Source: Pseudomonadota bacterium (GTDB lineage Bacteria > Pseudomonadota > Alphaproteobacteria > Dongiales > Dongiaceae). From it: a stretch of DNA of 64,000 bases. Below are positions 23,722 through 61,803 of this stretch, piece by piece. The notes beneath the pieces were generated by a model. It saw nothing but the letters and a program-made list of their open reading frames with translations, ran no database searches and had not been told where the DNA came from. The stretch is from positions 1,178,001 through 1,242,000 of the forward strand of contig JACPDN010000006.1 in NCBI GenBank assembly GCA_016183985.1, written 5' to 3'. A program made the translations under genes and the position numbers. Position 1 is the stretch's first letter; each line of letters opens with the position of its first letter.

Positions 23722-24135
23722 GGTCATCTGCAATCACTCGGGCAGTCGGGGCGGCGTTTTGCGGCGGCTGCCCTTGCGCCGGGACACGGGGGGTAACCTC
23801 GCCGGCCCGAGGGGATCGCCTCACCCATGGCGATCCGGGGGAGCCCTGTGTCCACCAGGCTCGGGGGGATGCCGGTTCCCGATCGGCATCGCGGGGCCTC
23901 GGCATACCCTGAGCCGAGGCAACGGGGGCCGCTATCACCGCCGACAGGCCAGGCGGAGGTCCATCACCCCGGAATCCCAAGGGAGCCGGTTTATAGCCAC
24001 CGGCAAAAGGCCGCCAACCTGCGCCCGCCGCCGCAGGGGTTTGATCCTGCAGAGACAGCTTGCGTCGGCAAACAACCGAGTGATTGCAGATGGCCGCTGT
24101 CTGGCCGAAACGAGATATGCGCGCGTTCTTTTTTA
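23722..24135 (+). ncRNA. Candidate unclassified structured RNA element (~370-410 nt)
   Basis: GGTCATCTGCAATCACTCGG (23722-23741) pairs with CCGAGTGATTGCAGATGGCC (24076-24095), 19/20; internal perfect hairpins listed in findings; T-rich run at 24126-24134; no credible ORF. Confidence 0.6.
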
Positions 24136-24230
24136 GTACAGCATTCCTAGTGTTTTGTCAAGAACATTTTAGGAACATATCGCCGCGAACCGGTGTATCC
24201 TGCGCGCCTACCGGATGTGGAGATGATGCG

Positions 24231-24659
24231 ATGCCTGACGCCGCCGATCTGCGCCGCCTGTTCGACCGCTGGGAGCAGGTCTGGCATGAGGGGAGATTCG
24301 ATCTGGTCCCAAGCTGTGTAGCACCGCTTTACATCCGACATGACGAAGCCGGCAGCCGCGTGGTGACGCGCGACGCCTATGCCGCCGAGCTTACCAAGCT
24401 GAAGGCAGACCGGCCGGACGTGCGCATCCTGGTCTATGACCACGCCTTGCACGGCAACGCCGCCTGGTATCGCTTCACCATGCGATGGACCGACCGGGTG
24501 AGCGGAGAGACGCGTTGCCGCGCCGGCATGCAGAGCTACCGCATCGCGGACGGACTCCTCGCCGAGACATGGGTCATGCTGCAACCGCCGGGATCCGCCT
24601 GGAGCGATCCTGTCGCGCAGGAAAGCTGGACGAGCGCGCCGCCGAAGCAAGCGACATAG
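24231..24659 (+). CDS. SnoaL/NTF2-like protein
   Basis: MPDAADLRRLFDRWEQVWHEGRFDLVPSCVAPLYIRHDEAG; ORF-track start 24084 trimmed. Confidence 0.75.
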   Translation: MPDAADLRRLFDRWEQVWHEGRFDLVPSCVAPLYIRHDEAGSRVVTRDAYAAELTKLKADRPDVRILVYDHALHGNAAWYRFTMRWTDRVSGETRCRAGMQSYRIADGLLAETWVMLQPPGSAWSDPVAQESWTSAPPKQAT

Positions 24660-60507: not shown

Positions 60508-60567
60508 CGGCCTTCTCAAACAGGCTTTGTTCTTGAAATGTTCTTGTTGGCGTGGCAGGATTTCGCT

Positions 60568-61803
60568 ATGCGCTATGAACGTGATCCCGTCGACCCCTTC
60601 CAGGACGCCCCCAGGCCCAATCTCGCCCGCAAGGGCCGGGGAGCCGCCAGCAACCGTGCCGGCCGTTTCGAACCCGGTGAGCGGCCGCTGGAGAACGATG
60701 GCTGGGACGAGACCCGCAGCGGCAGTGAAAGCGAGAGCTTTACCGGTCTGACCTTCAAGGGTGTCTCGCTCAATCTCTCACCCAAGCCGATGCCGAAGGG
60801 CGGTGACGACGATGAATTGCCACCGCTCAAAACCCAGGTGGCGCTCGACACGGCGCGCTCGATCATCGCGCATAACAAATCGCCCGACATTCCCTTCGAT
60901 CAGTCGATCAATCCCTATCGTGGCTGCGAGCATGGCTGCATCTATTGCTATGCGCGCCCGACCCACGCCTATCTCGGCCATTCGCCGGGGCTCGATTTCG
61001 AGACCAAGCTCTATATGAAGGCGGATGGCGCGAAGCTTTTGGAGAAGGAGCTGCGCAAGCCCGGTTACAAGCCCAGCGTCATTGCCCTTGGCGCCAATAC
61101 CGATTGCTATCAGCCGATCGAGAAGCGCTATGGCATCACGCGCGAAGTGCTGCATGTGCTGGCGGCCTATAACCACCCGGTCGGCATCACGACCAAATCG
61201 GCCAATGTCTGCCGCGACATCGATATCCTCGCCCCCATGGCGGCGAAAGGCCTCGCCAAGGTTTATATCTCGGTGACCTCGCTCGACCGCGAGCTGGCGC
61301 GTGTCATGGAGCCCAGAGCTTCGACGCCGACGAAACGGCTGGACGCCATCAAGCGCTTGAGCGAGGCGGGCATTCCAGTCGGCGTCTCCGTGGCGCCGAT
61401 CATTCCGGGCCTCACCGACCATGAGATCGAGGCGATCATCGAGGCGGCAGCCGGCATGGGCGCCAGCAGCGTCAACTGGACGATGCTGCGCCTGCCCCTG
61501 GAGATCAAGGATCTGTTCCGCGAATGGCTGGAGGAGCATCACCCCTTGAAAGCCAAGCGCGTGCTGGACCTGATGCGCGAATGCCGCGACGGTGCGCTCT
61601 ACAAGGCCGAGTTCGGCGAGCGCATGAAGGGGAGCGGCCCCTACGCCACCCTCATCCGGCAGCGCGTGCAGGCGATGGCCAAGAAGCTCAGCCTCAACAA
61701 TTACCGCTGGGATGTGGACGGCTCGCAGTTCAAGGCACCGGCCGGGCGCATGACGGGACCGGAGACGGAAGCGGAGAAGGCGCAGCTCAGCCTCTTTGGT
61801 TAA
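60568..61803 (+). CDS. PA0069-type radical SAM protein
   Basis: NPYRGCEHGCIYCYARPTHAYLGHSPGLDFETKLYMK. Confidence 0.93.
   Translation: MRYERDPVDPFQDAPRPNLARKGRGAASNRAGRFEPGERPLENDGWDETRSGSESESFTGLTFKGVSLNLSPKPMPKGGDDDELPPLKTQVALDTARSIIAHNKSPDIPFDQSINPYRGCEHGCIYCYARPTHAYLGHSPGLDFETKLYMKADGAKLLEKELRKPGYKPSVIALGANTDCYQPIEKRYGITREVLHVLAAYNHPVGITTKSANVCRDIDILAPMAAKGLAKVYISVTSLDRELARVMEPRASTPTKRLDAIKRLSEAGIPVGVSVAPIIPGLTDHEIEAIIEAAAGMGASSVNWTMLRLPLEIKDLFREWLEEHHPLKAKRVLDLMRECRDGALYKAEFGERMKGSGPYATLIRQRVQAMAKKLSLNNYRWDVDGSQFKAPAGRMTGPETEAEKAQLSLFG

Follow-up and report, generated by a model that had tools for sequence, protein, structure and literature searches.

The sponge RNAs CsrB/CsrC and RsmX/Y/Z are trans-acting and multivalent, and are built of tandem small hairpins with purine-rich GG loops. 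In E. coli, the RNA-centred tisB/istR locus is under SOS control through LexA, and its SOS transcript encodes a toxic peptide. The HEARO/omega-RNAs (IscB, IsrB) are large structured RNAs for which a nuclease nearby is optional, and the ToxI RNAs of type III toxin-antitoxin systems consist of tandem short structured units. GOLLD, ROOL and OLE are likewise large and multi-branched non-coding RNAs, with functions that are unclear; these ornate RNAs are reported to form homo-oligomers (PMC12286853).

The element described here lies in a 64,000-nucleotide stretch of DNA (the window) from a genome of the genus Dongia, between a CNNM/CorC gene and a SnoaL-like gene (24231-24659). Judged by comparison with its relatives, the region very probably belongs to a family of structured RNAs whose promoter is of the LexA type, and it would be a gene for a non-coding RNA of about 400 nt, on the minus strand from near 24122 to approximately 23722. 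It shares tandem small hairpins and purine-rich, GG-containing loops with CsrB/CsrC and RsmX/Y/Z, but its loops lack an invariant GGA, and it possesses a long closing helix, a P2 core and a LexA-type promoter. GGA in most hairpin loops, which would mark a Csr/Rsm RNA, was not found. A Csr/Rsm sponge was disfavoured because CsrA (PF02599), the best-known protein of this kind, was absent from all seven Dongia genomes, while control genomes were positive. The predicted SOS control recalls tisB/istR, but the Dongia element has no conserved reading frame.

The preliminary description of this DNA had considered a HEARO/omega-RNA relative. The element would likewise be a large structured RNA, but it has no Rfam match and no adjacent nuclease gene, and this relationship was not upheld; no HNH/RuvC nuclease ORF was found at the locus, where the neighbours are the CNNM/CorC and SnoaL-like genes. 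Rfam returned zero matches for the region even at E=10 (RNase P, tmRNA, SRP, riboswitches and HEARO included). With ten relatives (E<=5), five hits were obtained, all far below the gathering scores, and there was no family match. A retron or other reverse transcriptase-dependent RNA was also rejected, since reverse transcriptase (PF00078) was absent in the source genome (G000) and in the Dongia genomes G002, G003, G005 and G006. The tandem units resemble those of ToxI, but they are not near-identical, as their stems differ, and the window copy has no adjacent toxin gene; a search for ToxN-type toxin genes gave zero matches, as it did in the control genomes. Compared with GOLLD, ROOL and OLE, the element is similarly large and multi-branched, but it consists of repeated simple hairpins rather than ornate folds and, again, has no Rfam match. 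No description of such an RNA family was found in the open-licence literature searched.

Promoter and LexA-type operator

The element extends rightwards past the closing repeat into its own promoter, to 24176. On the minus strand, a sigma-70 promoter directly abuts an exact GTTC-N7-GTTC box, the two together covering 24176-24133. This LexA-type operator (GTTCCTAAAATGTTC, 24162..24176) was present in 30 of 30 members with at most one mismatch. It is followed by a −35 element, TTGACA (24156..24161), and, 17 nt from the latter, by a −10 element, TACTAA (24133..24138). Nearly all members have TTGAC directly after the operator, and the −10 element is TACTAT, TACTAG or TACTAA in most of them. The spacer contains a conserved CTAGGAAT (24143..24150), which is kept in most members, is inverted relative to the TTCCTA of the operator and may be the site of a second regulator. 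The transcript is predicted to start near 24122 and to run left through the element. A simple promoter scan did not list the promoter at 24176-24133, and the promoter call therefore rests on family-wide conservation. Because the promoter position and its limited distance to the closing helix P1 are kept in all members, the gene was assigned to the minus strand; the plus strand, adopted in the preliminary description, was wrong.

GTTC-N7-GTTC is the LexA operator of Alphaproteobacteria, and the lexA gene of the source genome (L199) has an operator of the same type, GTTCTAGTTTAGTTC, upstream. A covariance model (R1) was constructed from P2 and the 5' strand of P1 only, with the promoter sequence excluded, and it matched 30 members in 4 of the 17 genomes of the GTDB family. 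GTTCN7GTTC was located 56-112 nt upstream in all 30 members at no more than one mismatch, and exactly in 23; some of these members are recent duplicates, so that the occurrences cannot be counted as 30 separate events, and the promoter had itself first led to many of the sequences from which R1 was built. The background in random 160-nt stretches of the window was 3.4% (at most one mismatch) and 0.25% (exact). An operator at the promoter, as expected of the LexA (SOS) regulon, is thus found in exact form in the window copy and in 30 of 30 members. From its sequence, the promoter should be repressed by LexA and so be switched on by DNA damage.

Other loci with LexA-type sites were also observed. 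The operator at 24162-24176 sits between the RNA element and the divergent SnoaL-like gene (24231-24659), and LexA regulation may extend to that gene. Exact GTTCN7GTTC occurs only twice in the 64-kb window, at 24162-24176 and at 60529-60543. The second site, on the plus strand, overlaps the beginning of an ORF (60538-61803) for a radical SAM protein that weakly resembles spore photoproduct lyase; this ORF is a candidate SOS gene. A multi-copy Dongia protein family has the same LexA-type promoter (L107, L109, L111, L114, L117, L121 and L124-L128; full ORFs in L211-L214). Its members have a conserved N-terminus of about 140 aa (YRGPDGxYRFxNxxTIE), for which there is no Pfam match, and variable C-termini, and are like an SOS-induced polymorphic toxin family. 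CTAGGAAT is absent from the spacers of these protein genes.

Closing helix, P2 and the tandem hairpin array

In the 5' to 3' direction, the element is composed of a palindrome, the 5' strand of P1, YUGUY, the stem P2, a hairpin array, CUG and, finally, the 3' strand of P1. In the window copy, the 5' palindrome at the predicted transcript start is only 6 nt long (CGCGCG, 24119..24125), and other members have TGTGCACA, TGCGCGCA and TTGTGCGCACAA. Palindromes of at least 8 nt were found at the predicted start in 21 of 28 distinct promoters, compared with a mean of 1.7 and a maximum of 6 in shuffles. By analogy with the oligomers of GOLLD, ROOL and OLE, this palindrome could allow the Dongia RNA to dimerize.

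The 5' strand of P1 (GGCCATCTGCAATCACTCGG, 24076..24095) pairs with the 3' strand (CCGAGTGATTGCAGATGACC, 23722..23741), which marks the approximate 3' end of the element; no obvious terminator-like site was detected there (~23722) in a scan. Among the 12 members counted, from which the bulge carriers L115 and L118 were excluded, 92.1% of the cells were paired, and 10 of the 18 pairs were changed on both sides. P1 pairs in all 14 members examined when L115 and L118, inspected by eye, are included. The conserved YUGUY lies at the inner end of P1 (24071..24075), opposite the conserved CUG, in the alignments. P2 is formed by 24054..24069, which contributes GCAA to its internal loop, and 24013..24026, which contributes GCAG, as indicated by pairing and alignments; this loop is symmetric and of the GCAA/GCAG type. 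In P2, 94.6% of the cells were paired, and 6 of 10 pairs were changed on both sides. The covariation of P1 was 0.445 versus 0.220 after shuffling (0/500) and 0.20 or less in slid controls, and that of P2 (17 members) was 0.439 versus 0.260 (0/500); a shuffle control can be beaten by related sequences without structure, but the slid controls retain this relatedness and score far lower. These compensatory double changes in the homologs support the earlier proposal that a long-range helix closes a large structured RNA of a new class. The family, its structure and its LexA-type promoter are thus supported by sequence comparison.

In subfamily A (8 sequences), the fold of the whole element comprises P1, P2 and roughly nine hairpins, and 16 of its 74 consensus pairs show double changes. 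The window copy folds better than 100 dinucleotide shuffles, with z values of −5.4 (plus strand) and −4.3 (minus strand), and the minimum-free-energy structure predicted from its minus strand by itself reproduces the comparative model only in part. The sequences quoted in the preliminary description were all found in place, and the 20-nt closing inverted repeat (23722-23741/24076-24095) and the hairpins at 23797-23812, 23813-23836, 23868-23890, 23896-23920, 23985-24004 and 24018-24037 were verified. A longer pairing proposed there between GGACACGGG (23782-23790) and CCTGTGTCC (23845-23853) does exist, with one G-U, but it has no comparative support and competes with a hairpin at 23841-23862.

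The tandem hairpin array with its C-rich linkers occupies 23742..24012, as derived from comparison and from the subfamily A consensus fold. On the minus strand it includes GCCGGU-GGCUAUAA-ACCGGC (23985..24004), GCCUCGGC-UCAGGGUAU-GCCGAGGC (23896..23920), GAUGCCG-AUCGGGAAC-CGGCAUC (23868..23890), GAGCC-UGGUGGACACAG-GGCUC (23841..23862) and GGAUCGCC-AUGGGUGA-GGCGAUCC (23813..23836). The array comprises about 5-10 tandem hairpins in different members. Its stems vary almost freely, and its loops tend to be purine-rich with GG, appearing as GGG, GGU or GGA besides others. A loose loop motif, GGNHNA, was found in 29 of 74 hairpins, compared with 7 expected from shuffled loops (maximum 16). Almost every member has C-rich linkers, for example UCCCC and CCUCCC. 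Array hairpins are only partly kept in some ortholog pairs, L014/L015 retaining 9 of 28 changed pairs, and several of the computed hairpins behind this comparison are probably wrong.

Copies of the element and their distribution

Copies were collected by searching the DNA of the source genome and of related genomes, by a search for the LexA-promoter pattern and by inspection of the matches. The window element, read leftwards on the minus strand, is a member of a multi-copy family. About 20 further copies, truncated ones included, are dispersed in the source genome, and others were found in four other Dongia genomes: approximately 10 in G006, two in G003, one in G002 and a divergent subfamily in G005. 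The true copy number in G000 is uncertain because several contigs end inside or beside subfamily-A copies (contig ends C2, C3, C4, C9, C10, C11, C13, C14 and C15).

Each of four species has a homolog 3' of the CNNM gene, represented by the window copy, L009, L014 and L015, and these homologs differ in array content. The 3' half has been lost from the G006 ortholog (L009), and the window copy is therefore not indispensable. Further same-locus pairs are L123/L110, L041/L113 and L017/L013. The flanks of the L017 locus are only about 100 bp apart in G002 and about 250 bp apart in G005, leaving no room for the element; thus loci have been gained or lost over time. The genes adjoining the copies differ between copies, and there is no transposase beside the window copy. 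A MITE with terminal inverted repeats of about 20 bp, suggested earlier, does not fit as stated, since the window holds a single copy and one locus is kept in four species. In addition, the "terminal" repeats differ in sequence between copies yet stay complementary, and the promoter lies outside them. Separately, a MITE-like palindromic repeat of about 125 bp, CCCTCTCCC...GGGAGAGGG, was observed in the downstream flank of L010/L013 and at many places in G000, G002 and G006, with tens of copies per genome; it often adjoins subfamily-A RNA copies.

Across 395 alphaproteobacterial genomes, R1 found no homologs outside Dongia. Eight other alphaproteobacteria gave weak matches (E 5e-4 to 0.01), roughly as many as chance would produce, and the loci inspected looked like ordinary coding DNA. 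Blastn against phages and plasmids gave zero matches. A pattern scan of IMG/VR yielded 24 loci with a best R1 score of 24 bits, which were not taken as homologs, and a Rhodoferax match (L074) reads as coding sequence and was attributed to chance. At the search sensitivity used, the family appears to be limited to Dongia.

Proposed function and alternative explanations

The element is best read as belonging to a new family at genus level, in which SOS-controlled RNAs would act in trans as scaffolds or decoys. We infer transcription, induction, a protein partner and dimer formation in the following way. DNA damage would relieve LexA repression, and the minus-strand RNA would be made from the sigma-70 promoter. 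P1 would close and protect the hairpin array. During the SOS response, several molecules of a single RNA-binding protein would bind to the repeated loops, and two RNAs may pair through the 5' palindrome. A trans role is likelier than cis control because the neighbouring genes differ between copies. Since the loops are repeated on variable stems, it would be the loops that are recognized, by a protein, and not the stems by base pairing. Taken as a whole, a trans-acting, SOS-controlled RNA of about 400 nt that serves as a multivalent scaffold or decoy is a reasonably probable account, and its decoy or scaffold step, considered separately, is tentative. It is rather doubtful that the family forms a new SOS-induced class of multivalent ribonucleoprotein or RNA-only particles, in which dozens of similar RNAs would be released together upon DNA damage, dimerize via the palindrome and titrate or organize an RNA-binding protein.

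Since C-rich linkers are a feature of almost every member while the stems vary freely, the RNA might instead be an SOS-induced antisense or anti-Shine-Dalgarno RNA, in which the unpaired linkers pair with the G-rich ribosome-binding sites of numerous mRNAs and damp translation during DNA damage, the hairpins serving only as spacers. However, neither the length nor the sequence of the linkers is constant, no anti-Shine-Dalgarno word is common to all, and the recurrent loop motifs would be left unexplained; this function is unlikely. A selfish dispersed element, that is, mobile DNA with its own SOS promoter and structured RNA but without benefit to the host, would account for the about 20 dispersed copies in G000, for the 85-97% identity among many subfamily A copies, for flanks that are unrelated immediately upstream of the operator, and for the locus whose flanking genes are close, with the element absent, in G002 and G005. 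On the other hand, the same locus is retained in two to four species (window/L009/L014/L015; L123/L110; L041/L113; L017/L013), the copy-bearing genomes have no reverse transcriptase and the window copy no adjacent transposase, and both the compensatory evolution of the RNA and the conservation of the operator imply selection on a product. We consider a purely selfish element improbable.

The strong folding of both strands would be expected if the array acted as structured single-stranded DNA in repair, recombination or integrase sites and lay by an SOS promoter. This is very unlikely, because the promoter keeps to one side and one orientation throughout and lies within a restricted distance of the closing helix, and because G-U among the kept pairs of P1 and P2 favours RNA. 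A degraded or overlapping coding region was suggested by stop-free frames of up to 136 codons in the element; long frames of this kind occur in all six frames of this GC-rich stretch. However, no reading frame is conserved among the homologs and no Pfam match was obtained for the reading frames of the element, and a coding region is hardly credible.

To our knowledge, catalogues of the SOS response consist almost entirely of protein genes. The repeated, compensating hairpins of the scaffold or decoy RNA proposed here offer a clear handle for finding its binding partner. If true, the retention of a LexA operator by a multi-copy structured RNA family, at about 20 loci in one genome, would give the DNA-damage response a new RNA arm.
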